Assembly: GCF_004135345.1 (NCBI RefSeq)
Contig: NZ_CP035495.1
Coordinates: 124,001 to 188,000, forward strand
DNA: 64,000 nucleotides
Direction of reading: 5' to 3'
Origin: Xylanimonas allomyrinae
GTDB taxonomy: Bacteria; Actinomycetota; Actinomycetes; Actinomycetales; Cellulomonadaceae
This document shows positions 1 through 61,439 of the stretch, one piece after another. Position 1 is the stretch's first letter; each line of letters starts with the position of its first letter. The translations under genes were made by a program, and so were the position numbers. The notes beneath the pieces are model-generated. The model ran no database searches, was not told the origin of the DNA, and saw only the letters and a program-made list of their open reading frames with translations.

Positions 1-768
1 CCGCGCGTGGGAGGAGGGCGCCGAGATCCTCGACGTCGGCGGCGTGCGTGCCGGTGTGGGACCGGAGGTCGACGAGGCCGAGGAGATCCGGCGGGTGGTG
101 CCGTTCGTCGCGCGCGTGCGCGAGGCCGTGCCGGGCCTCATGGTGTCGGTCGACACGTGGCGTTCGGGCGTCGCACGCGAGGCCGTCGCGGCGGGCGCCG
201 ACCTCCTCAACGACACTTGGGCGGGCGCGGACCCGCACCTGGTCGAGGTCGCGGGCGAGGCCGGCGTCGGCGTCGTCTGCTCGCACACCGGGGAGCGGCC
301 CCCCGCACCGACCCGCGGCGGGTCGCCTACCCCCTGCCCGGTGACGCCCCCGCGGACGCCGACCCGCGCGACGGCGTGCTGCTCGACGTCGTCGCGACGC
401 TGCGGCGCGCGGCCGAGCGCGCGGTCGCGTGCGGAGTCCCGCGTGCGAGCGTCCTGGTGGATCCCACGCACGACTTCGGCAAGAACACCTGGCACTCGCT
501 GCACCTGCTGCGGCGCACGCAGGCGCTGGCAGGGCTCGGGTTCCCGCTGCTGATGGCGTTGTCCCGCAAGGACTTCGTGGGCGAGACGCTGGGCCTGCCA
601 CCCGCGGACCGGCTCGAGGGCACGCTCGCGGCGACGGCGCTCGCGGCGTGGCTGGGCGCTCGCGTGTTCCGCGCGCACGACGTCGCCGCGACCCGGCGCG
701 TGCTCGACCTGGTCGCCGTGGTGCGTGACGAGGCGCCGCCGGCGCAGGCCGTGCGCGGTCTGGCCTGA
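1..768 (+). CDS. folP: dihydropteroate synthase, 5'-truncated by window edge and frameshifted
   Basis: Folate pathway enzyme that condenses a pterin diphosphate with p-aminobenzoate. The first part reads EILDVGG, VSVDTWRS and GADLLNDTWAG, then CSHTGERP; after the break the C-terminal part has VLVDPTHDFGKN, PLLMALSRKDF and the GTLAATALAAWLGARVFRAHDV tail region, all typical of the TIM-barrel DHPS family. The frame changes at the C6 run at 299-304; one more C gives an uninterrupted RPPRTDPRRVAYP. The N-terminus lies left of the window. It is probably a paralogue or the main folP; the sequence does not decide. The break most likely is a base-calling error, see findings. Confidence 0.85.
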   Translation, partial: PRVGGGRRDPRRRRRACRCGTGGRRGRGDPAGGAVRRARARGRAGPHGVGRHVAFGRRTRGRRGGRRPPQRHLGGRGPAPGRGRGRGRRRRRLLAHRGAAPRTDPRRVAYPLPGDAPADADPRDGVLLDVVATLRRAAERAVACGVPRASVLVDPTHDFGKNTWHSLHLLRRTQALAGLGFPLLMALSRKDFVGETLGLPPADRLEGTLAATALAAWLGARVFRAHDVAATRRVLDLVAVVRDEAPPAQAVRGLA

Positions 769-813
769 ACGGCGCTCCGCGTATCGGTTTCCGGGCAGGC
801 CCATTCGTTGAAC

Positions 814-819
814 TAGACT
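814..819 (+). promoter_or_regulatory. -10 element for DUF3117 gene
   Basis: TAGACT lies 43 bases before the ATG at 863. Unlike most genes here this transcript would have a leader carrying a Shine-Dalgarno-like GGAG just before the start. No convincing -35 box is visible. Confidence 0.5.
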
Positions 820-862
820 GTCTCTTGGCGAAGCGACCGCACAACGGAATGGAGAGCCACAG

Positions 863-1030
863 ATGGCTGCGATGAAGCCGCGTACGGGTGACGGCCCCTT
901 GGAGGTCACCAAGGAGGGACGTGGCATCGTCATGCGGGTCCCCCTGGAGGGCGGTGGCCGTCTCGTCGTCGAGCTGAACGCGACCGAGGCGAGCGAGCTG
1001 GGTGAGGCCCTGCAGGCTGTGGTCGCCTGA
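863..1030 (+). CDS. DUF3117 small conserved actinobacterial protein
   Basis: Fifty-five residue protein beginning MAAMKPRTGDGPLEVTKEG and carrying a GRLVVELNATEA core followed by an ALQAVV end. This matches the short DUF3117 family found throughout actinobacteria; its function is unknown to me. The start is the ATG preceded by GGAG at about 10 bases. The gene stands alone between folP and a strong hairpin terminator and faces the O-methyltransferase gene. It is too short for many gene callers but its family match is clear. Confidence 0.88.
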   Translation: MAAMKPRTGDGPLEVTKEGRGIVMRVPLEGGGRLVVELNATEASELGEALQAVVA

Positions 1031-1055
1031 GAGGCACGGCCGTCTGACACGGAGA

Positions 1056-1090
1056 GCGAGCGCGGGACAGGTCACCTGTCCCGCGCTCGT
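1056..1090. terminator. bidirectional terminator between DUF3117 and O-methyltransferase genes
   Basis: A 15-bp perfect inverted repeat (GAGCGCGGGACAGGT and its complement, extendable by one or two pairs) with a minimal loop sits between two convergent stop codons. No U-run follows, as usual in high-GC genomes. Confidence 0.8.
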
Positions 1091-1118
1091 CGTCTGTCGG
1101 CCTGATCGCGCCGACGGG

Positions 1119-6859: not shown

Positions 6860-9340
6860 GGCCCCTCAACCACGTGGCGAACGCGCGCCGGAGCTGCTCG
6901 CGGCTGTCGATCCCGATCTTGCGGTACACGTTGAACAGGTGGTGCTCGACGGTGCGCACGCTGAGCACCAGCTCGTTCGCGACCTCGCTCGTGGCGACCC
7001 CTGCCACGACGCGGCACGCGATCTCCAGCTCTCGGTGCGACAGGTCGACCGCACGAACGAGCGGCGCGAAGAGCCCTTCGATCCCGCCGGTCGTCTCCTC
7101 GACGAGAGTCCACGTGCGGGAGGCCTGGAGCGCGGCGGCGGGCCGTTCACCGGCCGCGCGCAGGATGAGCGCCTCGGCCACGCCGGCGCGCGCGACGTAG
7201 AGCCAGGCACCTAGGTCGCTCATCGTCGCTGCGACCTGGCGCAGCCGCCCGAGGTCGCGTGTGGCCGTGGCCTGGGCGAGCTCGCAGAGCGCGCGCACCA
7301 CCGGGCTCTCGACGTGGGCAAACCGCGGGAGCAGGCAGGTCATCCGGGCCGGGTCGGGCAACGCCTCGGCGGCGTCGACGGCGTAGAACGCGGACGCGAC
7401 CACGTAGTCGCGGGCAGCGGCATCGTCGGCACGGGCCCACATCGCCTCACCGAAGTCGTCGGCCTCGGAGTCGAGGTCCAGCGCCATGTAGGGCAGCGGC
7501 CCGTTGACGTGCGGGCCGTCGTCCGCGTCGCGGGGTGCGGACGGCGGTCGTCCGCCGAGCCAGCGCTCGCGCGCCTCGGCGATCCCCTGGACCCCGGAGC
7601 GGTAGTGCGCGTGCAGCGTCGACCGCGACGTCATCGTGAGGATCGAGGAGGTGACACGCTTGACCTCGTCGAGCTGTCCCTGGAGCGCGAGGCCGAGGGC
7701 GACGGCGTATCCGTGGGCCTGGATCGCCTCGGGTGCGCGATGGTGCCGGCCGGCTTCAAGGCTCCGTAGCGCCTGGGCGGTGCCTTCGGCGATCTGGCCG
7801 CCCAGGACGCACGCGAGGTCGCTGGAGAACTGCCGGTGGCCGACGAAGATCGGGTGGTGCGGAGCCGGTGTGTCGAGTGCTGCCCGGGCCGACGTGGTGC
7901 GCCCCAGCGTGAGGTCGGCGTCGATGGTGATGCCCGACACCGCCTCGGCCGAGAGCGGCAGCTCACCGGCCGCCGCGCAGGTGAGATCGGCAGGGACGCG
8001 CTCGAGCGTGAGCTCCAGGTGCTGGCCGACGGCGGCGAGGTGGCCCCGCGAGCGCGGGCACCGGGTGGCTGCGTCGCGCAGCACCTCGTGGGCCTTGGCG
8101 ATGTCGTGGCGGCTGAACGCCAGGTGGAGGGCGTACCAGGCGGCCAGCTCGGCGAACTCGTTCTCCGATCCGAGCGCCGCGTCCGTCAGGTCGTAGACCT
8201 CGGCAGGGTCCACGATGTCCGACGACGACGTCATCATCGCGCGCAGGAGCTGTTCGGCGGACGCCGGGAGCCGGTCCGCCTCCCAGGTCGCCAGCCAGTG
8301 GTGGGTCACGGCGGACAGGTGTTCGGCGAGCGTGTGGCTGCGGATCGTGTCGACCACCGCCTGAGGGGGGTGCTGGTCGACGGCCAGGGCGGGCGGGAGC
8401 ACGAGGTGAGCGCTCAGGAGGCGTTCGCGGACGGTCACCCGGCGCGAGCGGGTGCTCTCGTGCGCGAAGTACTCGCCGACGAGCGGGGGGTAGACGCCGA
8501 CGACGCCTCCGCCGGGGCCGTCGATGATGTCGACGAGCCCGAGCGCGCTGAGGCGTTCCACGCCGTCGGTCGGGACGAGCCCGTTGAGGTTGTCGACGGT
8601 CAACGGGCTGGCGATGGCGATGAGCGCCAGGGCTTCGAGGTCCTCGGGGCTCGCGTCGATCAGCATCGACTCCGCGACGGGGGCAAGCTGCGCGGACCAG
8701 AGGGCCCCAGGGGCCGTCCAGCTGCCGTTGACCGGGCAGATGAGGCCGGCATCCGCCCCGACGAGTGCGACGGTTCGCGCGAGTCCGGGCAGCCCGCCCG
8801 AGTCGGTGGCGATCCGTGCCATGGTGCGGGAGTCGACCGGCCCGCCCAGAAGCTCCTCGATCATCGTGCGCAGCTCGCCGAGCATCAGCGGGGGACCGTG
8901 CGTCGTACGGACGGCTGGAGCGCGGCGAGCAGGGCACGCAGTGCCGACGTCGGCTGCGACCCGGTGCGCCGGACGACGAGCATGGACACCGGGCGCTGTG
9001 CGCGCACCGCCGCGATCACGCCGATGGTCAGGTCGTCCAGGTCGTCCGCGTCGTCGACCAGCAGGGTTCCGTGTGAGGCGACCTCGTCGCCGAGCACCGT
9101 GACGGCGTTCGCGACGGTGATGTTGCCCACCAGCTCGGGGAACCTGGTCAGCAGTGCCCCGAGCGGGCGGTCGCGCATCGCGCCGACGCCGGCGACCTGG
9201 ACGGTGCGCTGACCGCTCGATTGCAGTCGTTCGGCGACCCGCTCTGTCGCGTCGCTGCGACCCGAGCACGGTCTGCCGACCAGCTCGACGCTGATCCCCT
9301 TGGACAGTTGGCCTGCCAGTGCGGCAGTCAGGCTGCTCAT
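6860..9340 (-). CDS. large LuxR-family transcriptional regulator with degenerate P-loop, frameshifted
   Basis: About 825-residue regulator. The N-terminal NTPase-like part has ELVGRPCSGRSDAT, where a Walker A lysine is absent, and a Walker-B-like GTLLVDDADDLDD. A long helical/TPR-like middle is followed by a C-terminal HTH: LSHRELEIACRVVAG, then TSEVANELVLSVRTVEHHL and VYRKIGIDSREQL. The ATG at 9340 starts the protein. Its frame breaks at the G5 run 8890-8894, and one added base joins RRTVPPLMLGELRTMIEELL. The 3' end is unresolved: no stop follows in this frame until 6261, deep inside the antisense of the YihY gene, so another error near 6860 is likely. The regulated genes are unknown. Confidence 0.8.
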
Positions 9341-16342: not shown

Positions 16343-17361
16343 GTGACGACGCACACCTCGCTCTGGAAACGCGTCCGACGACGGACGCCGCCCCGCCACC
16401 CGTTCCGGGCTCCGCGCGAACGACCGGTCGCGCTGGGCGTCGCCGTCGCAGTCCTCGTCCAGGTCGGTCTCACGTTCATGCTGTACCCGGCGGCCGCGTC
16501 GTGGGTCTACCAGTACAACCAGTCCAACGTGGTGCGTGACCAGACGCGCGAGTCCGAGGCCACGGCGCAGGCCAGACGCGAAGAGATCCTGGCGGCCGCG
16601 CACGAGTACAACTCCCGGCTCCAGTCAGGTGCGCTGCTCGCCGAGGGCCGCAACCTCGCCGAGGGCACAGGCACGTCCGGCGGGGGCTCGACTACTGGTC
16701 GCAGCTCATGATCCGTTCGAGCGGGCCCTTCGCGCGTCTGCGCATCCCGTCGATCGACGTCGACCTACCCGTCTACCACGGCACGAGCGACGCGACCCTG
16801 CTCAAAGGGGCAGGGCACCTGCAAGGCACATCCCTTCCTGTCGGCGGCCCCGGCACGCGCGCCGTGCTGACGGCGCACCGCGGGCTCGCCAGCGCGACCA
16901 TGTTCACCCACCTCAACCGCGTCGACGAGGGTGACGCCTTCGTCATCGAGGTCCTCGGCCGGGTGCTGGCCTACCGGGTCATCGACATCGCCGTCATCGA
17001 ACCCCACTCCACGGAGGAGATCCGGCCGGTTCCCCGCGAGGACCTGGTCACGCTCGTGACGTGCACCCCCCTGGGGATCAACACCCAGCGCATCCTCGTC
17101 ACCGGGGAGCGTGTCGTGCCGACCCCGGCCGACGATCTTGCCGCGCTGGGCAGCTCACCCGACGTCCCGCGGTTCCCCTGGTGGGCCGTCGCCTACGCCG
17201 TCGCGACCCTGGGAAACGTCGCGTGGTATCAGCGGTCACGGCGCCCGACCGGTGCCCGCCTCCGGCGTCGAGCGGCACGACGACGCCGCGCGGCCGCCGC
17301 CTCGGCGGCAGTCAGCACCTCGACGGCCGCCCTCGCGGCCGCGCGCGGCGCCGTGCCCTGA
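16343..17361 (+). CDS. class C (pilin-polymerising) sortase, frameshifted
   Basis: Membrane transpeptidase that links pilin subunits. The N-terminal part has a membrane helix (ALGVAVAVLVQVGLTFMLYP) and HEYNSRL; the catalytic part has IPSIDVDLPVYHGTS, GHLQGTSLPVGG, the catalytic His in LTAHRGL, the Cys in LVTCTPLGINTQR and the Arg just after it; a second helix and a basic tail close the protein, as in class C enzymes. The frame breaks in the G5 run 16682-16686; one added G restores GGGLDYWSQLMIRSSGPFARL, in which the DYW..L lid-like segment typical of class C sortases appears. Corrected length is about 339 residues. Confidence 0.9.
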
Positions 17362-20014: not shown

Positions 20015-20029
20015 CAAAGGTCCTCGGTC

Positions 20030-20485
20030 TCAGCTCGGGAAGCACACGGTCTGCGAGAGCAGCTCGGCCGGTGCGTTGGGCGGGCACGGGTTGAACGTGA
20101 AGATCACGAGCGTGCCGAGCACGACGACGACGACGCAGGCGAAGTAGAGCAGCGCCTTGAGCACCAGGCGCGTGCCGTCCTTGGACGCGTAGTCGTTGAT
20201 GACCGTGCGCACGCCGTTGGTGCCGTGCAGCATCGCGAGCCACAGCATGAGCAGGTCCCAGACCTGCCAGAACGGGTTGGCCCACTTGCCGCCGACGAAC
20301 GCGAAGTCGATCGAGTGGACACCGTCACCGGTCATGAGGTTGACGAACAGGTGGCCGAAGATCAGCACCAGGAGCAGCACGCCCGAGGCGCGCATGAAGA
20401 TCCAGCCGTACAGCTCGTAGTTCGAGCGCGTCGTCTTGCGGCGCGTGTACGGGCTGCGCGGGGACTCGATCTCGAGGGAAGTCAT
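20030..20485 (-). CDS. sdhD: succinate dehydrogenase membrane anchor subunit
   Basis: 151-residue hydrophobic subunit with three membrane helices (ASGVLLLVLIFGHLFVNLM, VWDLLMLWLAMLHGTNGVR and ALLYFACVVVVVLGTLVIF). Histidines in GHLFVNL and LHGTNGVR are at the positions used for haem/quinone binding in the family. ATG overlaps the sdhC stop by one base. Confidence 0.92.
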   Translation of the reverse strand: MTSLEIESPRSPYTRRKTTRSNYELYGWIFMRASGVLLLVLIFGHLFVNLMTGDGVHSIDFAFVGGKWANPFWQVWDLLMLWLAMLHGTNGVRTVINDYASKDGTRLVLKALLYFACVVVVVLGTLVIFTFNPCPPNAPAELLSQTVCFPS

Positions 20486-20868: not shown

Positions 20869-20965
20869 GGTGGAGCCTCCGGTCAGTGAAAATGTTCGGT
20901 ATCCGGGCTTGCGCCACGGCCCGCACCCGCCGGCCACGACGAGGCCCCGGTGCTGACCGTCTTTG

Positions 20966-20979
20966 GTCACTGTAGTGAC
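20966..20979. promoter_or_regulatory. palindrome GTCACTGTAGTGAC upstream of sdhC
   Basis: Perfect 6-bp inverted repeat with a 2-base centre, about 100 bases upstream of sdhC. Read on the minus strand it contains TACAGT, a plausible -10 box for the sdh operon, so a bound regulator would block it. Confidence 0.4.
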
Positions 20980-21035
20980 ATCCGTTCGGCGGTCTCACCG
21001 GCGTCCATGCCGCCGTCACCGGCTGACGGGCGTTT

Positions 21036-21051
21036 TGTGATCCATTCCACA
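21036..21051. promoter_or_regulatory. CRP/GlxR-like site upstream of sdhC
   Basis: TGTGATCCATTCCACA differs from the cAMP-receptor consensus TGTGA-N6-TCACA at one position. It is 168 bases before sdhC and 112 before the guanylyltransferase gene. GlxR controls the sdh operon in Corynebacterium glutamicum. Confidence 0.5.
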
Positions 21052-21156: not shown

Positions 21157-21162
21157 GCCCTC

Positions 21163-22284: not shown

Positions 22285-23488
22285 CCGCGTCGGTGCGGGA
22301 CCTGGTCGCCGGGCTCGCCGCGGCGCTCGACGACGAGCTGGTCGCGTTCCGCCGCGACCTGCACGCCCACCCCGAGGTCTCCCGCGCCGAGGTGCGTACG
22401 ACGGCGGTCGTGCTCGAACGCCTGCGCGCCGCCGGGCTGACCCCGCACCCCATGCTGGTCACGGGCCTGTACTGCGACATCGGCCCCGAGCACGCCCCCG
22501 ACGGTGAGCCGCTGCCGCGGCTCGGGCTGCGCGCCGACCTCGACGCCCTGCCCGTCGAGGACCGCTGCGACAGCGAGTGGCGCTCGACCGTGCCCCACGT
22601 CGCGCACGCGTGCGGGCACGACCTGCATACCACCGTGCTGCTCGGTGCCGGGCTCGTGCTCGCCGACCTGCACGCGCGCGGACTGCTCGCCCGCCCGGTG
22701 CGGCTCATCTTCCAGCCGGCCGAGGAGGTCCAGCCGGGCGGCGCCCACGACGTGCTGGCGCAGGGCGTGCTCGACGGCGTCGACCGCGTCGTCGCGCTGC
22801 ACGCCGAGCCCAAGCTCGACGTCGGCCAGGTCGGCACGCGCATGGGCCCCATCACCTCGGCCTCCGACACCGTGTCGGTGACCGTGTCGTCGTCGGGCGG
22901 GCACACCTCGCGCCCGCACCTGACGGGCGACGTCGTGTACGCCCTCGGCCAGGTCATCACGCAGGTGCCGGGCGTGCTCGGCCGCCGGCTCGACCCGCGC
23001 TCGGGCGTCAACCTCACCTGGGGGTCGGTCCACGCGGGCGACGTCCACAACGCCATCCCGTCGACGGGCTCCGTCGCCGGTACCCTGCGCTGCCTCGACG
23101 TGCGCGCGTGGGAACGCGCCGGGCAGGTGCTGCACGACGCCGTCGAGCAGGTCGTCGCCCCGTACGAGGTCGACGTGACCGTGCACCACGCGCGCGGCGT
23201 GCCCCCGTCGACAACGACGACGACGTCACGGCCGAGATCGAGGCCGCGGCGCGCGCCGTCGTCGGGCCGGCCGGCGTGGTGCTGACCGAGCAGTCGCTCG
23301 GCGGGGAGGACTTCGCCTGGTACCTCACCAAGGTGCCCGGCGCCATGGCGCGCCTGGGCACGGGCACGCCCGGCGGCCGGCGGTACGACCTGCACCAGGG
23401 CGACCTGGTGGTCGACGAGCGGGCAATCGGTTTCGGCGTCCGGCTGCTGGCCGGACTTGCCGCAGGGGTGCTGCTCCAGGCCGAGTGA
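22281..23488 (+). CDS. M20 family amidohydrolase (AmiA/AmiB-like), frameshifted
   Basis: Metal-dependent amidohydrolase/aminoacylase of about 402 residues after correction. Metal-site segments LRADLDALPVED, HACGHDLHTTVLLGA, FQPAEEVQPGGAHDVL and LHAEPKLDVGQ are seen, and the C-terminal GEDFAWYLTKVPGAMARLG carries the last ligand region. The frame breaks in the C5 run 23202-23206; one added C gives GVPPVDNDDDVTAEIEAAAR. GTG start overlaps the manC stop. Mycobacteria carry two such genes near deoD; the substrate is unknown. Confidence 0.87.
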
Positions 23489-24926: not shown

Positions 24927-26515
24927 GTGAAGCTGGAGCTGCGCGGGATCACGAAGGTCTTCGGGTCGCTGGTCGCCAACGACCACATCGACCTGGTCAT
25001 CGAGCCAGGCGAGATCCACGCCCTGCTCGGGGAGAACGGGGCCGGCAAGAGCACTCTCATGAACGTGCTCTACGGGCTCTACGACCCCGACGGCGGCGAG
25101 ATCCTGCTCGACGACGAGCCCGTCACCTTCGCGGGGCCGGGTGAGGCCATGGCCGCCGGCATCGGCATGGTGCACCAGCACTTCATGCTCGTGCCCGTCT
25201 TCACCGTCGCCGAGAACGTCGCGCTGGGCCATGAGCCCGTCAAGGGCGCCGGGATCATCGACGCGCGCAAGGCGCGCACCATGGTGGAAACCATCTCCGA
25301 CCGGTTCGGGTTCGAGGTCAACCCCCAGGCGCTGGTCGAGGAGCTGCCCGTCGGCGTCCAGCAGCGCGTCGAGATCATCAAGGCCCTGTCACGCGACGCC
25401 AAGGTGCTCATCCTCGACGAGCCGACGGCGGTGCTGACTCCGCAGGAGACCGACGAGCTCATCGCCATCATGCGGCAGCTCAAGGCCGCGGGACGTCGAT
25501 CGTGTTCATCACGCACAAGCTGCGCGAGGTGCGCGCCGTCGCCGACCGGATCACCGTCATCCGGCGAGGCAAGGTCGTCGGCACGGCCGAGCCGTCGGCC
25601 TCCGAGACCGAGCTCGCCTCGCTCATGGTCGGCCGTTCGGTGTCGCTCGGCGTCGACAAGCTGCCGGCCGACGCGGGGGACGCCACGTTCCGCGTGCGCG
25701 GCCTGACGGTCGTCGACGACGCCACCGGGTCGCCCGTGGTCGACGGCGTCGACCTCGACGTGCGCCGGGGAGAGATCCTCGTCGTCGCGGGTGTCCAGGG
25801 GAACGGGCAGACGGAGCTGACCGAGGCCATCATCGGCCTGCAACGCCCCGTCGCCGGGTCGATCACCCTCGACGGCACAGAGCTCGTCGGCCTGGGAGTC
25901 GCGGGAGCGCTCGGGGCCGGCGTCGGGTACGTGCCCGAGGACCGCAGCACCGACGGCCTGATCGGCACGTTCTCCGTCGAGGAGAACCTCGTGCTCGACA
26001 TGTTCCACTCGCCGCCGTTCTCCCGCGGCGGCTCGCTCGACAAGGGCGCGATCCGGCAGAACGCGGAGCGCCGCGTCGCCGAGTTCGACGTGCGCACGCA
26101 GAGCGTGACCGCGCTCGCCGGCACGCTCTCGGGCGGCAACCAGCAGAAGGTCGTCCTTGCCCGGGAGATGTCCCGGCCGCTGCGCCTGCTCATCGCCTCG
26201 CAGCCCACCCGCGGCCTCGACGTCGGCTCGATCGAGTTCGTCCACCAGCGCATCGTCGCCGAACGCGACAAGGGAACACCCGTCATCATCGTGTCCACCG
26301 AGCTCGACGAGGTGCTCGCCCTCGGCGACCGCATCGCCGTCATGTACCGCGGCAGGATCGTCGGCGTCGTCCCGGGGGGAACGGACCGTGACGTGCTGGG
26401 CCTCATGATGGCGGGCGTCCCGCTCGAGGAGGCCGTCGAGCAGGCCGCCGCGCACCACACGACGCTCGGCGAGGCCGACCTCGCCGCCGACCAGACCGAG
26501 GAGGGCATCCAGTGA
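24927..26515 (+). CDS. nucleoside ABC transporter ATP-binding protein (two NBDs), frameshifted
   Basis: 529-residue ATPase with two nucleotide-binding domains, like BmpB/NupA. NBD1 has Walker A GENGAGKST, the unusual signature LPVGVQQRVEI and Walker B VLILDEPTAVLTP. NBD2 has VQGNGQTELTEAI in place of a canonical Walker A, signature LSGGNQQKVVLARE and LLIASQPTRGLDVG; such degeneration of the second domain is normal in this family. The frame breaks at GGG 25490-25492; one added G restores LKAAGTSIVFITHKLREV. GTG at 24927 is preceded by AGAGGA. Stop overlaps the next gene. Confidence 0.92.
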
Positions 26516-30908: not shown

Positions 30909-32788
30909 ATGCGGAAAGGACTACGGCTGACCGACCTGCTCGCGCGCCTGCACGTGTTTGCCGGGCCGGTACCTGGCGAGCAGGCACCCGCCGACGAAGC
31001 ACCCGCACCTGCCGGCAACGCACCTGGGCGAGCGGAGGCGGGCGCGCCTGTGCCCGTGCGGCCCGCCGCGCAGGTGCCCGGTGGTGCGCAGCCGGGTCCG
31101 CCGGTGCGTCCCGCCGACACGGCGCGCATGCGTCCCGCGACGGCGGCGCCTGTCGCGGAGGGATCCGACGATGTGCCGACCGGTGCGCGCGTGCGTCCTG
31201 CCGCCGAGGCTCCTGGCGGCGCGCGGGCAGGTTCGCCTGCGCGCCCCGCCGGCGCGGCGTCGGTGCGTCCGGCGGCGACGGTGCCAGCCGCTGAGGTGCC
31301 CGGTGATGGGCAAGCGGGTCTGGACGTGCCCGCCGCGGCGCAGGCCCCTGATGGTGCGCAGGCCGCTGATGGTGCGCGGACCTCTGATGGTGCGCAGGCG
31401 CCCGGTCGTGCGCGGACGGGTGGTGGCGCGCGGGCGGGTTCGGCGGTGCGTCCTGCTGGCCCGGGGCGGTGCGTCCTGCCGTGGCGGTGCCTGTCGCTGG
31501 GGAGCCCGACGATGTGCGTCCCGCTGGCCCCGGGTCGGTGCGTCCTGCCGTGGCGGTGCCTGTCGCTGGGGAGCCCGACGATGTGCGTCCCGCTGGCCCC
31601 GGGTCGGTGCGTCCTGCCGTGGCGGTGCCTGTCGCTGGGGAGCCCGACGATGTGCGTCCCGCTGGCCCCGGGTCGGTGCGTCCTGCCGTGGCGGTGCCTG
31701 TCGCTGGGGAGCCCGACGATGCGCGTCCCGTTGCGGGCGCGCGTCCTGCTGAGGGGTCCGGCAGCGGGCAAGCGGGCGCCCGCGTGCGCCCTGCCGCGCA
31801 ACGGCCTGGTACCGCGCACGCAGCCACGCCGCCGCGTCCCGCGGCCGCCGCGCCCTCAGCAGGGGAACCCGATGGTGCACCGGCACCGGCACCGGCACGG
31901 GCACCGGCGCTCCCGCGTACCGCAGCGGCGGCAGATGCTGCTGGGGGGCGTGAAGACTCGCGAGCGGCCGCGCCCGTGCGGCCCGCGTCCGCGCACGTGG
32001 CTCAGAGGGCGTCCGACGAGGCGGACCCCAGCGAGCAGCAGCCCGGTGACCGGGGGGTGGCCGCGCTCGGCAGCGACGTGGCCGACGCGCTGCGTGAGGT
32101 CGGCGGTGCGGCACGGCGCTCGGTGCTCGACCCGCTCGGGCGGGACCGCGGGCCGGGGCGCGTCGGGCATCCCGAGCGTGTCGCCCTGCCGTTCCTCGAC
32201 GACGCCGCAGCGGCGGTCGCAGCCCGGCAGATCGACGAGACCACGTGCGGAGCGGCCGTGCTGACGATGCTGGCCATGGCGGGCAGCCCGCGCCTTGCGC
32301 TGCACGTCGCTCGTGATCCCGGGCAGCGGTTCGCCGCGATCCAGCGACAGGTGCACCGTGCGAGCTCGCGGTCTGGGGTGCTGCCCTGGCCGCGCCGCTT
32401 CGGCACGGCGCCATGGGCGGCGGCCGCCGTCGCGCGATTCGGTGACGTGCGGTTCACGCATCGAGTCGTCGGCGGAGGGGACCGGGGTGCGGCCGTGCTG
32501 CGTGCGGCGGTCGCGGCGGCGTCGGCGGGCGTTCCGGTGCCGCTGTACTCGGGCGGCGATCTCGGTGGGGCGTGGCAGGACGCGGTGCCGCGCCACGTCG
32601 TGCTGCTGGCCGACGTGTGGCCGGGTGAGGGCGTCGTGCGGGTGTACGAGCCGTCGTCGGCGACGATGCACACGGTGCCGACCGCCGTCCTGCTCGACCC
32701 GGAGTGGGCGACCGAGCACGACCGCTCGGTGCTGACGGCAGCACTGGGCGCGTGGCCGCACGTCGTGTGGGCCGTGCTCCCGCGCTGA
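30909..32788 (+). CDS. low-complexity, repeat-bearing protein with C-terminal C39-like cysteine-peptidase domain, frameshifted
   Basis: About 626 residues after correction. Residues 1-390 are rich in Ala, Pro, Gly, Arg and Val and contain an 18-bp-unit block (DGAQAP-like, 31350-31403) and a 69-bp-unit block (31469-31747). The last 200 residues look like a papain-like C39/bacteriocin-peptidase fold: QIDETTCGAAVLTMLAM supplies a nucleophile Cys, and RHVVLLADVWPGEGVVRVYEP supplies the His and the following acidic/DP-like position. No signal peptide is visible, although MRKGLRLTDLLARLHVFAG is hydrophobic. The frame breaks near CCC 31460-31462; one added C restores the repeat frame RPAGPGAVRPAVAVP. 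It begins 4 bases after deoA, inside the nucleoside operon, for no obvious reason. Function unknown. Confidence 0.72.
31350..31403. repeat. 18-bp tandem repeat, three units
   Basis: Units start with GATGGTGCGC and code for DGAQAA, DGARTS and DGAQAP in the C39-like gene. A partial preceding unit is present. Confidence 0.7.
31469..31744. repeat. 69-bp tandem repeat, three full units and one partial
   Basis: Units start at 31469, 31538, 31607 and 31676 with GTGCGTCCTGCCGTGGCGG and are identical over their length; the fourth diverges after about 45 bases. Each encodes a 23-residue unit of the type VRPAVAVPVAGEPDD followed by VRPAGPGS. Perfect identity implies recent expansion. Confidence 0.93.
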
Positions 32789-32883: not shown

Positions 32884-33215
32884 ATGAGCACCCAGCCTGG
32901 TCGGGACGCCTGGCGTGACGCCGGTGTCGCCGAACCTGACCTGCACGAGCGCGAGGTCCGGGCGCTGGATCCGGACGACGCCGCGGATCCCGAGGGCGTG
33001 GTCAACCTGGTGGAGGAGGCGCTCGCCGTGGTGGGCCAGCGTGTGAGCGCGGCCTCCGCCGAGGAGTACCGGCCGGCCGCACCTCGCCCCGACCTGGAGG
33101 GCCTGGCCGACGAGGCCGACGTCGCCGACCAGGCCGACGAGATCCAACCCCTGACGAGGAAGACACCTACACGGCCCCGACCCCTCCCACCCCAGACCCC
33201 GCCGACGAGCCGTGA
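32884..33215 (+). CDS. small acidic hypothetical protein, probably frameshifted
   Basis: Begins [19 protein letters not shown], after GGAGG. The protein is acidic, with [16 protein letters not shown] and a Glu/Asp-rich second half ([16 protein letters not shown]). Around 33141 the composition changes to Arg/Pro-rich unless one G is added, which instead gives [14 protein letters not shown] and a stop at 33213-33215, about 110 residues in total. I do not recognise a family. It lies between the C39-like gene and a large hairpin. Confidence 0.6.
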
Positions 33216-34490: not shown

Positions 34491-35192
34491 GCACCGTCCC
34501 GACGACGCCGGCAGAGCTCGCGTCGTTCATCGACCACACCCTGCTCAAGCCGGAGGCGACCGACGCCGACGTGGTCGCGCTCGTCGAGGAGGGCGCCGGG
34601 CTGGGCGTGTTCTCGGTGTGCGTGTCGCCGACGTTCGTCGCGCTCGCGCACGAGACCGCGGCCGGTCGCCTCAAGGTCGCGACCGTGTGCGGGTTCCCGT
34701 CGGGCAAGCACGTCTCGTCCATCAAGGCCGCGGAGGCCGCGCGGTCGGTCGCCGACGGCGCCGACGAGGTCGACATGGTGATCGACGTGGGCGCGGCCAA
34801 GGCCGGTGACTTCGAGGCCGTCGAGGCCGACATCGCCGCGGTCCGCGCCGCCGTGCCGGGGGCCGGCTGCTCAAGGTCATCATCGAGTCGGCAGCGCTCG
34901 ACGACGACGAGATCGTCGCGGTGTGCCGTGCCGCGGAGGCGGCGGGCGCCGACTACGTCAAGACCTCGACAGGCTTCCACCCGACCGGCGGTGCCACGGT
35001 CCACACGGTGTCGCTCATGGCCGACACGGTCGGCGGGCGCCTGGGCGTCAAGGCCAGCGGGGCATCCGCACCCTCCAGGACGCCCTTGCGGCGATCGAGG
35101 CGGGCGCGACGCGGCTGGGCATGTCGGCCGCGGCGGCGGTCCTGGCCGAGCTGGCGGGCGCTCCCGCGGCAGCCCCGCCGTCAGACTACTGA
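34487..35192 (+). CDS. deoC: deoxyribose-phosphate aldolase, two frameshifts
   Basis: Aldolase that splits deoxyribose-5-phosphate to acetaldehyde and glyceraldehyde-3-phosphate; 235 residues when corrected. Segments in order: [49 protein letters not shown], then [15 protein letters not shown] (after break 1), [17 protein letters not shown] and [15 protein letters not shown] with the Schiff-base Lys (after break 2). Breaks are in the G5 run 34858-34862 and the G4 run 35059-35062; one extra G at each heals the frame. Confidence 0.9.
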
Positions 35193-35251: not shown

Positions 35252-37034
35252 TCACAGGCCCAGCGCCGCGGCGATGTCGTGCTTGAGCGTCGCGAGCGTG
35301 GTGCGCGCCTCGGCCCGGGCGGCGCCCAGGGCGTCGAAGGTCGCATCGGGCGCGACGTCGCGCACCACCTCCAGGTAGCACTTGACCTTGGGTTCGGTGC
35401 CCGACGGCCGCACGATGACGCGCGTGCCGTCCTCGGTCAGCAGCCGCACGCCGTCGGTCGGGGAAGGCCGTCCGCGCCGTCGGCGAGGTCGAGCACGTCG
35501 ACGACCGTGGACCCGGCGAGCGTGCGCGGCGGCTGCGAGCGCAGTCGCGCCATCGTGCCGGGGATGCCTGCGAGGTCCTCGAAGCGCACGGAGAGCTGGT
35601 CGGTCAGGTACAGGCCGTGCTGGCGGGCGAGGTCGTCGAGCCGGTCGACCAGCCCTCGCCCTTGTGCCTTGAGCCGGTTGGCGAGCTGGGCGACGAGCAG
35701 CGCGGCCGAGATGCCGTCCTTGTCGCGGACCCGTTGCGGGTCGCAGCAGTAGCCCAGCGCCTCCTCGTACCCGAAGGCGAGGCCGGGCGTGCGGGCGATC
35801 CACTTGAACCCGGTGAGCGTGGTGGCGTGAGCGAGGCCGTGCCGGGTCGCGATCGCGGCCAGCAGGCGGGAGGAGACGATCGAGCTCGCGAGCACAGGCC
35901 GGTCGCCGACGGCGTTCGCGTCCCTCCCGGCGGCCAGGTGCTCCGCGACGTCGTCGCCGAGCAGCGCGCCCACCTCGTCGCCGTGCAGCATGCGCCAGCC
36001 TTGCGACTTCGCCGTCTCCGCGCCCTGGTAGGTTCCCGCGCGCGGGTCGCGCACCGCGACGGCGCAGCGGTCGGCGTCCGGGTCGTTGGCGATGACGACG
36101 TCGGCCTGGGCGTCCTGGGCGACGGCGATCGCGAGGTCGATCGCGCCCTTCTCCTCCGGGTTGGGGAACACGACGGTGGGGAAGTCGGGGTCGGGCTCGG
36201 CCTGCTCCTCGACGGGCACGACGTGGGTGAAGCCGGCCTCGGCGAGCACCCGTGCGAGCACCGTGCCGCCGACGCCGTGCAGCGACGTCGTGACGATGCG
36301 CAGGTCGCGGGGGGCGTCGTCGGCGAGCGCGACGACCGTGGCGACGTAGTCGTCGACGATGTCGTGGCCGAGCACGGTCCAGCCGGACTGCGCGCGCGGC
36401 ACGGCTGCGGCCGGGCCGACGGCGTCGATCCGCTCGGCGATGCGTGCGTCGAACGGCGGCACGATCTGCGTGCCCTGCCCGGCGCCGGGCACGACGCGAC
36501 CGCCCAGGTAGACCTTGTAGCCGTTGTCGGCCGCCGGGTTGTGCGACGCGGTGACCATCACGCCCGCGTCCGCGGACAGGTGTCGCACCGCGAAGGACAG
36601 CACGGGCGTGGGCAGCGGTGAGGGCAGCAGCAGCACCTCGATGCCCTGCGCGGTCATGACGGCGGCGGTGTCGCGCGCGAAGTCCGCGGAGCGGTGCCGC
36701 GCGTCGAAGCCGACCACCACGCGCGGGGTCGCGTCGCCGAGCTCGCCGCGCAGGTAGGCCCCAGGCCCGCGGCCGCACCGACGACGACGGCGCGGTTCAT
36801 GCGGTTGGGTCCGGCGGCCATCGCGCCGCGCAGGCCGGCGGTGCCGAACGCGAGACGCGTGGCGAACCGGTCGCGCAGCTCGGCCTGGGCCTGGACGGCG
36901 CCCGGCGTGCCCCCGCCGGCGCGGGCCACGAGCGCACGCAGCTCCGCCTTGTCGGCGTCGTCGACGTCGGCGCGCTCCCACGCCTCGGCCGCGGCGAGCG
37001 CGGACGCCAGCGAGTCGTCCTTGAGGTCGGTCAC
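35252..37034 (-). CDS. alpha-D-phosphohexomutase (PmmB type; likely phosphopentomutase here), two frameshifts
   Basis: About 594 residues after correction, the length of the long phosphomannomutase/phosphoglucomutase-2 class. Segments: [13 protein letters not shown], catalytic serine loop [20 protein letters not shown], metal loop [10 protein letters not shown], sugar loop YEEALGYC and phosphate loop [15 protein letters not shown]. Breaks lie at C4 36759-36762 and G4 35460-35463. It precedes deoC across a terminator and follows pnp, which suggests conversion of (deoxy)ribose-1-phosphate to the 5-phosphate, like PGM2 relatives; no deoB is in the window. Start GTG at 37034. Confidence 0.87.
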
Positions 37035-37049: not shown

Positions 37050-37900
37050 TCAGACGAGCTTGACGATGCGGGCGAGCAGGTCGCTGATGACGGGGGCGGC
37101 CTTGGCCCCGGCCTCCAGCACCTCCTCGTGCGAGAGCGGCTGCGGGCTGACGCCGGCCGCGAGGTTCGTCACGAGCGACATGCCCAGCACCTCCATGCCG
37201 CAGTGGCGGGCGGCGATCGCCTCCAGCCCCGTCGACATGCCCACCAGGTCGGCGCCGAGCACGCCTGCCATGCGCACCTCGGCGGGCGTCTCGTAGTGCG
37301 GGCCGTGGAACTGCGCGTAGACGCCGTCGGGCAGCGTGGGCTCGACCTGGCGGGCGAGGTCGCGCAGCCGGGGGAGTACAGGCCGGTGAGGTCGACGAAC
37401 GTCGCACCCTCCAGCGGCGAGGCACCCGAGAGGTTGAGGTGGTCCTTGATGAGGACGACCTGACCGGGACGCCACGCCATGTGCAGGCCGCCGCAGCCGT
37501 TGGTCAGCACGACGGTCTCGGCGCCCGTCGCGGCCGCGGTGCGCACGCCGTGGGCGACGCGGCGCACGCCGCGCCCCTCGTACAGGTGGGTGCGCGACCC
37601 GAGCACCAGCACGTTGCGTGTCGAGCCGTCGGCACGCTCGACGCGGATCGATCGCGTGGTGCCGACGTGGCCCGCGACCGACGGCTTGGCGAAGCCCGGG
37701 ATCTCGTGCGACGGGATCTCCGCGACGACGTCGCCCAGCAGCTCGGCGGCCCCGCCCCAGCCCGAGCCCAGCACCAGGGCGACGTCGTGGCCCTCGACGC
37801 CCGAGGCGCGGGCGATGTGCTCCGCGGCGGCGCGCGCGACGTCGAACGGGTCGGTCGCCGGGTCGTCGAGATCAGGCACGGAAGCGGCATTGCTGGTCAT
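37050..37900 (-). CDS. purine nucleoside phosphorylase, frameshifted
   Basis: 283-residue trimeric-type PNP (PNP_UDP_1) that splits inosine and guanosine with phosphate. Seen are [20 protein letters not shown] and [42 protein letters not shown], then [32 protein letters not shown] and [12 protein letters not shown]. The break in G5 37370-37374 is healed by one base, giving [16 protein letters not shown]. Leaderless start. The mutase gene follows 15 bases downstream. Confidence 0.92.
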
Positions 37901-37938: not shown

Positions 37939-39383
37939 GTGAGAAGCCACGCGACCACAGACACCGCAGTCAGCGACGGCCAGCGCGTCGTCATCCTGGG
38001 CGGGGCCCCGGCGGGTATGAGGCGGCTCTCGTCGCGAGGCGCCTGGGAGCGCGGGTCACGGTCGTCGAGCGGCACGGGCTGGGCGGTGCCGCGGTGCTCA
38101 CCGACGTCGTGCCGTCCAAGACGCTCATCGCGACGGCCGAGTGGCTGACCCTCGCCGAGGCGGCACCCGAGCTGGGCGTGCGCGGTACCACGGCCACATC
38201 GGCGGCGCGGCCCGACGTCGACCTGGCGGCCGTCAACGCGCGCGTGCGCGAGCTCGCCGCCGCGCAGTCGGTCGACATCCGGGCGCGGCTCGAGCGCGAG
38301 GGGGTCGAGATCGTCACCGGGCACGGGCGGCTGGCCGGGCCGTCGCGCGTCGCCGTCGCCGCGGACGCGGACGCGAACGCCGAGACGACGCTCGACGCCG
38401 ACACCGTGCTCATCGCCGTCGGCGCCACGCCGCGCACGCTGCCGACCGCCATGCCCGACGGCGAGCGGATCCTCACCTGGACGCAGCTGTACTGCCTCGA
38501 CACGCTGCCCGAGCGGCTCGTCGTCGTCGGGTCGGGTGTCACGGGTGCCGAGTTCGCGGGCGCCTACCGCGCGCTCGGCTCGGACGTCGTGCTGGTCTCC
38601 TCGCGTGACCGCGTGCTGCCGGGGGAGGACGAGGACGCCGCGCAGCTTCTCGAAGGAGTGTTCCGGGGGCGCGGCATGGAGGTCATGTCCCGGTCGCGCG
38701 CCGCGTCCGCGCAGCGCACGGCCGACGGCGTCTCGGTCACGCTCGCCGACGGGCGCGTCGTCGAGGGGTCGCACGTGCTCGTCGCCGTCGGGGCGGTGCC
38801 CGCGACGGCGGGCCTGGGACTCGCGGAGGCGGGCATCGAGCTGAGCGAGGGCGGGCACGTCGTCGTCGACAGGGTCTCGCGCACGTCGGTGCGCGGCGTC
38901 TACGCGGCGGGCGACTGCACGGGCGTGCTGCCGCTCGCGTCGGTCGCGGCCCAGCAGGGGCGCATCGCCATGGCGCACGCGCTGGGCGACGCCGTCGAGC
39001 CGCTGCGGCTGGGCAGCGTGGCGGCGAACATCTTCACCGAGCCCGAGATCGCGACGGTCGGGTACGGCGAGAAGTACCTGCGCGAGCACGCCATCCGCTT
39101 CGTGACCTCGACGCTGCCGCTCGCACGCAACCCGCGGGCCAAGATGCTCGGCATGCGCGACGGGTTCGTCAAGCTGTTCGCGCACCCCGAGGCGGGTGTG
39201 GTGCTGGGCGGCGTCGTGGTCGCGCCCCGCGCGAGTGAGCTGATCTTCCCCATCACGCTGGCGGTCGCGCACCGCCTCACGGTCGACGACGTGGCGAGCG
39301 CCTTCACCGTCTACCCGTCGCTGTCCGGTTCCATCGCGGAGGGCGCGCGCGTACTGCACGGGCAGGTCAGTCCGGGCGCGTGA
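37939..39383 (+). CDS. lpdA: LpdA-type NAD(P)H:quinone oxidoreductase (dihydrolipoamide dehydrogenase fold), frameshifted
   Basis: About 481-residue flavoprotein of the pyridine nucleotide-disulfide oxidoreductase class, orthologous in context to Rv3303c. FAD site VVILGGGPGGYEAALVARRLGA after correction, second dinucleotide site LVVVGSGVTGAEFAGAYRALG, FAD motif VYAAGDCTGVLPLASVA, and a dimerisation domain. The usual redox cysteines are missing: the segment reads GLGGAAVLTDVVPSKTLI, without any Cys, so lipoamide chemistry is excluded and a quinone reductase role is likely. The break is in the G4/C4 run 38002-38009. An ATG at 37930 is an alternative start. Confidence 0.88.
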
Positions 39384-39394: not shown

Positions 39395-39400
39395 CGGACG

Positions 39401-39909: not shown

Positions 39910-41233
39910 CTACGGGACGCCTTCGAAGAGCCCCTGCCCGACGTACCCCTGGCCGTCCGCGACGCCGGGCGGTACCGCCCACAGGCCTGACCCCGTGTGC
40001 CGCAGATACTCGCTCATGAGGTCGTTCTTGGCGAGCGTGTTCTGCATCGGCACGAACTGGCGTTCCGGGTCGCGCACGAACGCGAGGAAGAACAGGCCCG
40101 CGTCGAGCCGGCCGAGGCCGTCGGAACCGTCGGTGTAGTTGTAGCCGCGGCGCAGCATGCGCGCACCGCCGTTGGCCGTCGGGTGTGCGAGGGCCACGTG
40201 CGAGGCCGGGTCGATGAGCGGGGTGCCCTCGCGCCCCGCACGCGCGAAGTCGGGCTCGGTCGTCTCCTGGCCGCCCGACAGGGGAGCGCCCGTGCCCTTG
40301 GTGCGTCCGACGACGGTCTCCTGCTCGCGCAGCGAGCTGCGGTCCCACGTCTCGATGGTCATGCGGATGCGCCGCGCCACCAGGTAGGTGCCGCCCGCGA
40401 GCCAGCCGGCCGCCGGGTCGTCGCCGGGCGCGACCCAGACGTGCTCGTCGAGGGCCGCGCCGTCCTCCGCGAGGATGTTGGCGGTGCCGTCCTTGAAGCC
40501 GAACAGGTTGCGCGGCGTCGTCTGCGCCGACGAGGTGCGCGCGGTGCGCCCGTAGCCGAGCTGGCTCCAGCGCACCTGGGCCGTGCCGAACGCGAGGCGC
40601 GCCAGGTTGCGCACGGCGTGGACCGCGACCTGCGGGTCGTCGGCGCACGCCTGCACGGCGAGGTCGCCGCCGCAGCGCGCGTCCTCCAGCACGTCCCCGG
40701 GAAGTGCGGCAGGTCCGCGAGCAGCGCGGGACGGCGTGCGGCGAGGCCGAAGCGGTCGCGGCCGTCGGCGTCGGCGAACAGCGACGGCCCGAACCCGAAC
40801 GTGATCGTCAGGTTGCCGGGCGTGAGCTCCAGCGCCTCGCCCGTGTCGTCGGGCGGGGCCTCGTACGGGCCGCCCACCGGGCCGAGCTCGCCTGCGGGCA
40901 GGCCGCGCGTCATGCGCTCGGCCGCGAGCGTCCAGCGGCGCAGCAGGTCGACGACGTCGTCGCGCGACGACGTCGTGAGGTCGAACGTGGCGAAGTGCAG
41001 CCGGTCCTGGGCGGTGGTGGTGATGCCGGCCTGGTGGGCTCCGTGGAACGGCACGACGTGGTCCGGCGCGGCGGAGGCGGCGGGCGCGGTCGCGCGGCCG
41101 GTGCCGAACCCGCCCGCGAACCCTGCCGCGAGCGCGGCGAGACCCGCCCCGCCCGCGCCCAGCAGGGCGCGGCGGGACGGGCCGCGGGGGTCTCGGCGGG
41201 TGCGCCCGCCGAGACGGGGTCGTGCTCGGTCAC
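39910..41233 (-). CDS. efeB: Dyp-type haem peroxidase EfeB, Tat-exported, two frameshifts
   Basis: About 441 residues after correction. A Tat signal appears only after repair: PSRRALLGAGGAGLAALAAG. The mature part has the Dyp segments FHGAHQAGI, NLTITFGFGPSLF, the GXXDG motif in LFGFKDGTANI and the haem region LAHPTANGGARMLRRGYNY. Breaks are at G5 41186-41190 and C4 40695-40698. EfeB acts outside the membrane with EfeO and EfeU in ferrous or haem iron uptake. GTG start overlaps the efeO stop (GTGA). Confidence 0.92.
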
Positions 41234-53954: not shown

Positions 53955-54838
53955 GTGGAACCTTCGACCCTCGACGTCGAGGCCGTGCGACGCGCAGTGC
54001 TGCGACCGGCCGGGCAGTGGGCGACCGTCGACGTCGTGCCGACGATCGCCTCCACCAACACCGAGCTCGCCGAGCGCTCGCGCGCTGCCACGGCCGCCGG
54101 GGCCCCCTCGACGCTCCGGCGGCGCTCGCGGCGGAGCACCAGACCGCGGGAATGGGTCGCGCGGGGCGCACCTGGCACACGCCGCCGCACGCCGCGCTGA
54201 CCGTGTCGGTGCTGCTGCGACCCGAGGTTCCCGACGACGCGCTCGGCTGGCTCCCGCTGCTCAGCGGTCTCGCGGTCGTGCGCGTGCTGCGTGCCCGCGG
54301 CGTGCCCGCCTCGCTCAAGTGGCCCAACGACGTCGTGCTGCCCGCCGCCGAGGAGCTCGACGGGTTCGGGCGGTGGCGCAAGGTCGCAGGGATCCTCGCG
54401 CAGGTCGTCCCGGACGGCGTCGTCGTCGGTGTCGGGCTCAACGTCACGCAGGCAGCGGACGAGCTTCCTGTGCCGAGCGCGACGTCGCTCGCGCTCGCCG
54501 CCGCACCCGCCGCCGCGACCGACCGCACCACGCTGCTGGCGGCGCTGCTGGGCGAGCTCACCGCCGTCGTCGAGCGGTGGTGCGGCGACGACGGCGACGC
54601 CGACGCGCCCGGCCCCGGCGGTGCCCCGTCCCTCGCCGACGAGTACGCCGCGGTGTCGGCGACGCTCGGGACGCCCGTGCGCGCCGAGCTCGCGGGCGGC
54701 GCCTGCATCGTCGAGGGCACGGCGCACCGGCTCGCCCCCGACGGGGCACTCGTCGTCGTGCGCAAGGACGGGAGCGTGCGGGTCGTCGCCGCGGGTGACG
54801 TGCACCATGTGCGACGCGCCGGACGGGCGCAGGGGTGA
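53955..54838 (+). CDS. birA: biotin-protein ligase, frameshifted
   Basis: 294-residue monofunctional (no HTH) biotin--[acetyl-CoA carboxylase] ligase. Catalytic domain: [16 protein letters not shown], then [47 protein letters not shown] and [10 protein letters not shown]; a C-terminal SH3-like domain follows ([22 protein letters not shown]). The ATP-loop reads GMGRAGR where GRGRxGR is usual. The break is in C5 54103-54107; one added C restores [18 protein letters not shown]. It biotinylates the BCCP domain of the carboxylase alpha subunit. Confidence 0.92.
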
Positions 54839-59795: not shown

Positions 59796-59802
59796 GGTCG
59801 GG

Positions 59803-59808
59803 AGAGTA
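59803..59808 (-). promoter_or_regulatory. -10 element of the aminotransferase gene (leaderless)
   Basis: TACTCT on the minus strand ends 7 bases before the ATG at 59795. Confidence 0.5.
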
Positions 59809-59832
59809 GCGGGCGGTCCGCGCCGCGCGCCG

Positions 59833-60351
59833 TCACGGTCCACCGGTGACGGCCCGCGCGGTCGACGACGCGGAGATCGTGAACCCGTGCCCGGCCGTGC
59901 GCGTGAACCATCCGACCAGCGGTGGGTGCGACGACGCCACCAGCGTCACCCGAGCCGAGCGCCCGTCGGGCGAGTCCGCCTCGGCCACCCGCAGCCCCTC
60001 CGGGAGCTGCTCCGGGAACGGGTACGCGGCGAGCTCGGCGGCGACCGCGCGGGCCACGGCGTCGTCGCTGAGCAGAAGGCCGCCACCGCCGACGCCGGGC
60101 GCGGCGGCCACGAGGTGCCGGCCGGGTGGCATCGCGTCGGCGGCACTGGCGGCCAGCACGTCGGCGAGGTTGTACAGGCGCTTGTGATCGAGGTGGACCG
60201 CGGCAGCCGAGGCGACGACGGCCACGAGCATGAGACCGAGGACGACGAAGCCGAGCGTCAGCAGCAGGATCCGCCCGTCCTCCGCCTGCGGGGCGCGCTC
60301 CCGCGCCGCCACCTGAGCGCGCGCCCGGGCGGGAGCGTGGGGCGTCGTCAT
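59833..60351 (-). CDS. TadG-like pilus assembly protein (Rv3660c-neighbour type)
   Basis: 172 residues with a single N-terminal membrane helix (ILLLTLGFVVLGLMLVAVVASAAAVHLDHKRL) preceded by EDG, the TadG-type processing/insertion region. The rest is extracytoplasmic: YNLADVLAASAADAMPPG, then a folded domain ending in TISASSTARAV. Last gene of the Tad operon, start overlapping the stop of the TadE-like gene. Confidence 0.8.
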   Translation of the reverse strand: MTTPHAPARARAQVAARERAPQAEDGRILLLTLGFVVLGLMLVAVVASAAAVHLDHKRLYNLADVLAASAADAMPPGRHLVAAAPGVGGGGLLLSDDAVARAVAAELAAYPFPEQLPEGLRVAEADSPDGRSARVTLVASSHPPLVGWFTRTAGHGFTISASSTARAVTGGP

Positions 60352-60797
60352 CGGACCTCGCGGAACTGGTCGACGCTCGCCCGGTAGCGGGACTCGACGG
60401 GCACCTCCAGGGGGACCCACGAGCGCAGCGCCTCCGGCACGAACGGCAGCGGGACGCGGGTGTGCACCGTGGCCGTCACCGTGCCACCCGGACTCAGGCA
60501 CGGGTCGGCCGCGCAGGTCACCTGCACGGCGCCGCCCGTCAGCGCCGGCTGCGGGTCGAAGCCCTGATCCTCCAGCGCGATCCCCGCCGCGACGCGGGCG
60601 CGCGCGGCGGCGTCGTCGGAGGAGACCGCGGTGACCACGGCGCGCGCGGCCTCGCGGGCCGCGCCGTCGACGGCGAACGCCCCGGCCTGGAGGCGCCCCA
60701 CGGTCAGCACGAGATAGACCAGCGGGATCAGCAGCACCACCGTCGTGCCGATGAACTCGACGACGGCGGAGCCGCGCTCGGAGTCGTCGACCGTCAC
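60348..60797 (-). CDS. TadE-like pseudopilin
   Basis: 149 residues. ERGSAVVEFIGTTVVLLIPLVYLVL is the TadE type-IV-prepilin-like segment with Glu at +5 of the presumed processing site; GAFAVDGAAREAARAVVTA follows. Two cysteines (TCAADPC) may form a disulfide. Coupled by overlap to the neighbours on both sides. Confidence 0.85.
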   Translation of the reverse strand: MTVDDSERGSAVVEFIGTTVVLLIPLVYLVLTVGRLQAGAFAVDGAAREAARAVVTAVSSDDAAARARVAAGIALEDQGFDPQPALTGGAVQVTCAADPCLSPGGTVTATVHTRVPLPFVPEALRSWVPLEVPVESRYRASVDQFREVR

Positions 60798-61210
60798 CGG
60801 GCCTCCTCCAGGGCGTGGCCCGTCACCACGACCGTGCCCGACGGCCCCAGCAGGCCGACCAGCGGGAGCGGCGCCCGCACCGTCATCTCGGCCACGGGCA
60901 CTCCCCAGCGCATCGAGGTCGAGGCCACGACGTCGTCGGCGTACCGCGCCGACACCGACTGCGTGATGAGGGCACGCGTCCGGGCGACGCCGTCGGCAGG
61001 GCCGCGGTCCGCGCGCGCCGCGACCCGTGCCCCCTCCGCGGCGGCGTCGATGAGCAGCGACCGCGTGTGCTGCACGAGGGCGACCTGCACGACGCCGAGG
61101 AACAACGCGACGACGAGCGCGGCGACCATGGTGAACTCGGCGACGGCCGAGCCTCGCTCGCCCGGCACCGCTGCCCCCTGGCGGCCCGTGCGCGGGAGCA
61201 GAGCGCTCAC
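60794..61210 (-). CDS. TadE-family pseudopilin
   Basis: 138 residues starting at the GTG that overlaps the upstream stop. The pilin-like helix is GERGSAVAEFTMVAALVVALF, again with Glu after SAVA, followed by RSLLIDAAAEGARVAARADRG, typical of TadE. Probable minor pilin of the Tad apparatus. Confidence 0.87.
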   Translation of the reverse strand: MSALLPRTGRQGAAVPGERGSAVAEFTMVAALVVALFLGVVQVALVQHTRSLLIDAAAEGARVAARADRGPADGVARTRALITQSVSARYADDVVASTSMRWGVPVAEMTVRAPLPLVGLLGPSGTVVVTGHALEEAR

Positions 61211-61439
61211 CGGCCCGTGACGCTCGAGATCGCCTGCGTGAACGCGCCCTCGAGCAGCGGACCGGCGATCGCCCACAGCGCGACCACGAGGCCCGCCGTC
61301 ATCAGCGTGACCAGGACCCAGCCGGGCACGTCGCCGCGCTCAGGGTCGAGGGCCTCCGGCCGTCGCGTGGCGGGGCTCGCCGCGGCGGCCTGCGCGGGCG
61401 TCTCGACCGGCTCGGTGGCGGGGAGGCGGCGTCGTGCAT
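61207..61439 (-). CDS. small single-helix membrane protein of Tad operon, frameshifted
   Basis: About 77 residues. It starts at ATG 61439 after AAAGGGAA as MHDAASPATEPVETP once one base is added to the G4 run 61420-61423; otherwise the frame with the membrane helix has no start codon. The C-terminal half, ERGDVPGWVLVTLMTAGLVV then ALWAIAGPLLEGAF, looks like a Flp-type small pilin, but the usual TxxEY processing motif is missing. Its position between tadC and tadE is where the pilin or a DUF4244-like protein is usually encoded. Confidence 0.7.

Follow-up and report, generated by a model that had tools for sequence, protein, structure and literature searches.

Frame shifts at short runs of G or C are an error pattern of an already known and ordinary kind, and the closest described counterparts are summarized here from extracts of the published reports. 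In Streptomyces leeuwenhoekii, the errors of the PacBio assembly were mostly omissions of C or G in runs of at least three, which caused frame shifts; its correction consisted almost wholly of insertions, with 2934 bases added in 7.9 Mb (PMC4487206). In nanopore assemblies corrected by Kastor, false deletions made up most of the indel errors and were commonest after homopolymers of four to five bases (PMC12007338). In assemblies flagged for many frameshifted proteins, homopolymer miscounts have led to false pseudogenes and to exclusion from RefSeq (PMC7604302). The present analysis concerns a stretch of 64 kb from the genome of Xylanimonas allomyrinae (G000; 3,848,642 bases in two contigs), hereafter the window (G000:C1:124001-188000), in which an initial annotation had listed about 18 deficits of one base, each breaking a gene at or near a short G/C run. 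The results from alignments and from a coding-frame model indicate that the broken genes of the window are almost certainly consensus errors of the assembly, and that the genes are intact in the living cell. The artefact is of practical rather than biological interest.

The S. leeuwenhoekii assembly resembles the present case in that it comes from a high-GC actinomycete and carries G/C-run omissions and frame-shifted genes. It differs in that the error was proven there with Illumina data, whereas the G000 case is known from sequence comparison alone (PMC4487206). The rates also differ. S. leeuwenhoekii has about 37 errors per 100 kb when all DNA is counted, and G000 has 8.5 per 100 kb in the genome sample, the latter figure being restricted to coding frames and to the strict setting of the hidden Markov model (HMM) described below. 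The nanopore cases share the false deletions at short runs that create false pseudogenes, but A/T runs led there, at 59% GC, whereas the aligned cases in G000 lie at G/C runs (PMC12007338); the GC content of the window is 71-76% outside one AT-richer stretch. With the flagged assemblies, the likeness is one of homopolymer miscounts giving false pseudogenes, although the flag was tied mainly to Ion Torrent/proton data (PMC7604302).

Sign and frequency of the frame breaks

Frame breaks were sought in two ways. In the alignment test, the predicted genes of five same-genus relatives (G001, G002, G005, G008, and G010) were compared with the window, and the reading frame was followed along. For a filtered count, at least 130 aligned bases on each side, at least two agreeing references, and a single sign were required. 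G010 is Xylanimonas cellulosilytica, and is a good control because its genome was finished with Sanger and 454 reads and has a stated error rate of less than 1 in 100,000, according to an extract of its genome report (PMC3035249). The coding-frame HMM was trained on the relatives only, treated gene overlaps as boundaries, and was run with strict and with laxer (1e-6) penalties. Its five 80-kb control regions from the relatives were also training data, while the 20-kb genome samples were not. The conclusions are based on the strict HMM setting and on the alignments, not on the laxer setting.

By filtered alignment, G000 has 19 deficits and no excess in 172 kb, while G001, G002, and G010 together have neither a deficit nor an excess in 412 kb; for the finished relative G010 by itself, the count is 0 deficits in 188 kb. 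Eleven sites of the window enter the filtered count rather than 12, the one in lpdA being lost to the 130-base filter since it lies near the start of its gene. In 184 kb of G008, the same filter leaves 7 deficits and no excess, and in 54 kb of G005 it leaves two entries, which are 54 bases apart near one gene start and are probably one event. In contig C4 of the draft genome G005, near 136,340-136,410, there is one frame deficit near a gene start against five references, which is either a real change or a difference in start site.

In the window, the strict HMM called 13 deficits, all at sites named in the initial annotation, and no excess. In the matching 80-kb regions it called nothing of either sign in G001, G002, and G010, one deficit in G005, and two deficits in G008. 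Outside the window, the sample of G000 comprised 400 kb in twenty 20-kb pieces, including one from contig C2 and one (3500001-3520000) that shares sequence with the essential-gene regions. Here 34 deficits and 1 excess were called, compared with 3 and 1 in the 200-kb sample of G002 and 1 and 0 in the 40-kb sample of G010. Over 180 kb in four regions where essential genes are concentrated, G000 has 13 deficits and 2 excesses, G008 has 7 and 1, G002 has 1 and 0, and G010 has 2 and 0, so that the strict HMM yields 3 deficits in 220 kb of G010 over its sample and its essential regions. The deficits are genome-wide in G000 and not confined to the window. At the laxer setting, the window has the 13 deficits and one excess (59841, at a gene overlap), and the calls in the samples (deficits and excesses) are 53 and 5 for the 400 kb of G000, 15 and 2 for the 160 kb of G008, and 3 and 1 for the 40 kb of G010. 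Contig C2 (32,160 bases) has matches to ATP/GTP-binding, TraM-recognition, ArdC-like, and ParA proteins and so resembles actinobacterial plasmids; its first 20 kb (G000:C2:1-20000) contain 3 deficits at the strict setting.

Several alignment events were left out ahead of counting. In the window these were 1824 and 5319 (deficits with two references each, near the starts of reference open reading frames (ORFs)), 53925 (an excess with two references, located between two genes on the HMM map), and 54827 (mixed sign). In the rpo region, a deficit at 31266 and an excess at 49683 were dropped as the N-termini of the references look to us like spurious extensions, and in the dcw region 3431 and 3531 form a compensated pair. 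Mixed-sign clusters (e.g., rpo 31115) were left uncounted, as were single-reference events, among which both signs occur. The filter on aligned length, references, and sign excludes every one of these events too.

The aligned sites number 21 (13 in the window and 8 outside), and all are losses. A G/C run of at least four bases was located within 12 bases of 19 of them, against a null expectation of 16.7% (p 2.5e-13, a value that is descriptive only, as are all p-values on these 21 sites, which were chosen after events had been dropped). Within 8 bases, 18 of the 21 have such a run (null 11.1%). Runs of six occur 14.1 times per 100 kb in G000 and 10.0 times in G008; the values for G001, G002, G005, and G010 are between 16.2 and 27.5.

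Core genes and 23S rRNA copies

The eight aligned deficits of G000 outside the window affect rpoC (G000:C1 near 3,493,007), the methionyl aminopeptidase gene (map), glmM, murF, an RluA-family pseudouridine synthase gene, the gene for the large subunit of class 1b ribonucleotide reductase (nrdE), and two genes that had no family match at the threshold used. Core genes hit beyond the window include rpoC, murF, glmM, map, and nrdE. In a whole-genome Pfam search, rpoC of G000 appears as two adjoining half matches in two frames, and each of four relatives gives a single, complete match. The beta prime subunit of RNA polymerase is indispensable. Naturally split forms of rpoC are represented among the family models by those of cyanobacteria, and are not found in the kin of G000.

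The broken genes could in principle be real pseudogenes, arising from gene loss by slippage in G/C runs and aided by an actinobacterial mismatch repair (NucS) that is blind to small indels. The number of genes affected and the run context would both fit slippage, and an extract of a study on mycobacteria indicates that NucS leaves indels of 1-2 bases unrepaired (PMC11551767). However, rpoC and other core genes are among those hit, and there is no excess among the 19 filtered events of G000, whereas slippage should yield gains as well as losses. Nor is there relaxed selection downstream of the breaks, because the share of differences from the relatives that falls on third codon positions is 0.62-0.67 after the breaks, compared with 0.57-0.61 in intact genes (before the breaks it is 0.46-0.58). 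When the hallmarks of genuine pseudogenes, i.e., dispensable genes, mixed lesions, and relaxed selection, were tested, they were not found. Moreover, rRNA is also affected, in one copy of three. In toto, we regard gene loss as very improbable.

Among the three 23S rRNA copies of G000, the one at 1710467-1713568 (minus strand) lacks one G in four G-runs, which are kept by both sister copies; in addition, substitutions distinguish the three copies at two alignment columns. Of the nine copies in G002, G008, and G010, all keep the four runs except some of those in G008. Two of the four runs are short in one and two G008 copies, the second gap being aligned one column along, and in total three runs show a shortfall in G008 copies. 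No such G-run loss was found in the 23S copies of G002 or G010. That the assemblies of G000 and G008 fail at the same long 23S runs points to the reading of run length. Set aside in this comparison were a difference in the length of a CA repeat at the 23S edge (G000 and G002), a single T in one copy from G010, and columns in which all three copies of one genome differ from the others. The 23S flanks were excluded because two of the G010 copies differ there by indels.

The rRNA copies also bear on programmed frameshifting or transcriptional slippage, by which the genes would be functional and read through the runs. The supported events all have the same sign and lie at runs, as such a mechanism would have it, but the relatives carry these genes in one frame, and the loss of G residues from the 23S gene cannot come from translational frameshifting because rRNA is not translated; only one copy of three is hit. 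Furthermore, of the genes hit in the essential-gene regions of G008, only one is also hit in G000, and there at another position. A site conserved in the relatives and a restriction to translated genes, both characteristic of programmed shifts, were tested for and not observed, and a functional shift of this type is extremely improbable. Also considered was a strain with real losses that has no fidelity of run length (rpoC, murF, and an rRNA copy being hit) and that lives by transcriptional or translational slippage at its G/C runs. We find such a strain without indel repair scarcely credible, and it was rejected on the same grounds as the two explanations above.

Assembly error and its consequences

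The interpretation given in the initial annotation, a systematic assembly error, is supported by losses that are of one sign, tied to G/C runs, and genome-wide, that hit core genes and one 23S copy, and that are absent from G010 by filtered alignment. A true short run of G or C would sometimes be counted by the assembly as one base too few, the reading frame would shift, and an intact gene would look broken. We infer that the cause is unpolished long-read sequencing, or another sequencing method blind to run length. No sequencing report for the G000 genome was found in the literature, and therefore any named platform is a guess.

Several results weigh against assembly error. The genes rpoB, ileS, valS, leuS, atpA, atpD, and rho, as well as the Mur-ligase domains, are located in long open frames in G000; this is compatible with the roughly one error per 10 kb, at which such intact genes are expected. 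The laxer HMM calls both signs in the controls (4 deficits and 11 excesses in 200 kb of G002). The breaks are also unevenly distributed, since the part of the window between 20001 and 40000 has 8 of the 13 strict deficits, while 28 other chromosome stretches average 1.57 per 20 kb. Over its full 64 kb, the window has 13 strict deficits, a higher density than the 34 of the 400-kb sample (p 0.01). The cluster at 20001-40000 would seldom arise from purely random error, and a dip in read depth could be its cause.

The assemblies of G000 and G008 should be used with caution. For G000, conclusions on pseudogenes, on gene number, and on seeming gaps in metabolism would be misleading if drawn from the assembly. 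By extrapolation from 34 deficits in 400 kb, about 330 frame breaks are expected genome-wide in G000, and its completeness score of 99.99 does not reveal the defect. G008, the second closed chromosome of the genus, has the same all-deficit pattern, and its valS is split into two frames.

Break points in the window

All 18 places listed in the initial annotation were found as written, the one at 33141 being a single G only. Some independent support, unequal in strength, was obtained for 17 of the 18, all of them deficits. Twelve sites show the one-base deficit against at least two same-genus relatives, and one more shows it against a single relative; support for the remainder comes from intact frames in relatives at two sites (luxR and Tad) and mainly from the HMM at two others. 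The statement that one added base restores family motifs in every case was too strong, as the site assigned to a C39-like gene (31460..31462, plus strand) has no independent support. It gave no HMM event at any setting used, and neither piece has a Pfam match at E values up to 1. Because homology in the relatives begins at residue 19 of the downstream piece in one match, and at residue 54 or later in the rest, the gene probably starts downstream of the proposed break. A search of 58 other genomes gave relatives in 30 for this downstream gene (stretch 30909-32788), which has no Pfam match at E values up to 1.

Some sites are covered by relatives, the HMM, and a family match together. They include the deficit at C6 in folP (dihydropteroate synthase; 299..304, plus strand; 2 relatives), that at C5 in an M20-type gene (23202..23206, plus; 3 relatives), the first of two deficits in deoC (G5, 34858..34862, plus; 3 relatives), and that at G5 in the gene labelled pnp (37370..37374, minus; 4 relatives). 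The same applies to the deficit at C4 in efeB (deferrochelatase/peroxidase; 40695..40698, minus; 2 relatives) and to that at C5 in birA (biotin ligase; 54103..54107, plus; 4 relatives, two of them via an opposite-strand ORF). The gene names needed amendment in part, pnp being purine-nucleoside phosphorylase, and the M20 gene belonging to the amidohydrolase subfamily.

Other deficits are indicated by relatives and the HMM. The second in deoC is at G4 (35059..35062, plus; 3 relatives), and two are located in a phosphohexose mutase gene on the minus strand, at G4 (35460..35463) and at C4 (36759..36762), each with 5 relatives. In the gene for the ATPase of a sugar-type ABC importer, the deficit is at or just before G3 (25490..25492, plus; 5 relatives), and for 3 of these the alignment gap falls immediately upstream of the G residues. 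The DUF885-type gene has its deficit at C4 (50438..50441, minus; 5 relatives); it has no NCBIfam match, and the label is that of the initial annotation. The deficit at G4 in lpdA (38002..38005, plus) is indicated by 4 relatives and a family match, and by the HMM at its most lenient setting only. Here the label was not borne out, since among the matches listed the relative scores above the model cut-off only as NAD(P)H-quinone dehydrogenase, not as dihydrolipoyl dehydrogenase.

At five weaker sites (sortase, luxR, the acidic gene, efeB 41186, and Tad), alignment to at least two close relatives is lacking or the agreement is less exact, which leaves room for a mixed case in which the bulk are assembly errors and one or a few of these are real mutations. 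We consider this unlikely, as the weak sites match the confirmed ones in sign and run context. The second efeB deficit, at G5 (41186..41190, minus strand), is indicated by 1 relative and by the HMM at lenient settings. For the acidic-protein gene (33141..33151, plus), the HMM event is at 33147 and the nearest run is C4 at 33148-33151; a one-base gap near the site is found in 3 of 5 relatives, although not at one and the same base in all of them, and the other 2 gave no alignment. In the sortase-domain gene (G5, 16682..16686, plus), the deficit was called by the HMM only, no close relative aligns, and the Pfam Sortase domain lies entirely within the downstream piece. The LuxR-family regulator (G5, 8890..8894, minus) has an HMM event at lenient settings only, but its N-terminal piece of 149 amino acids falls within single open frames of 872-1086 amino acids in the four best-matching relatives, and the GerE domain sits in the other piece (Pfam). 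The small gene of the Tad locus has its deficit at or near G4 (61420..61423, minus), called by the HMM at the most lenient setting only; its start and body share one frame in G005 and G010, and not in G000.

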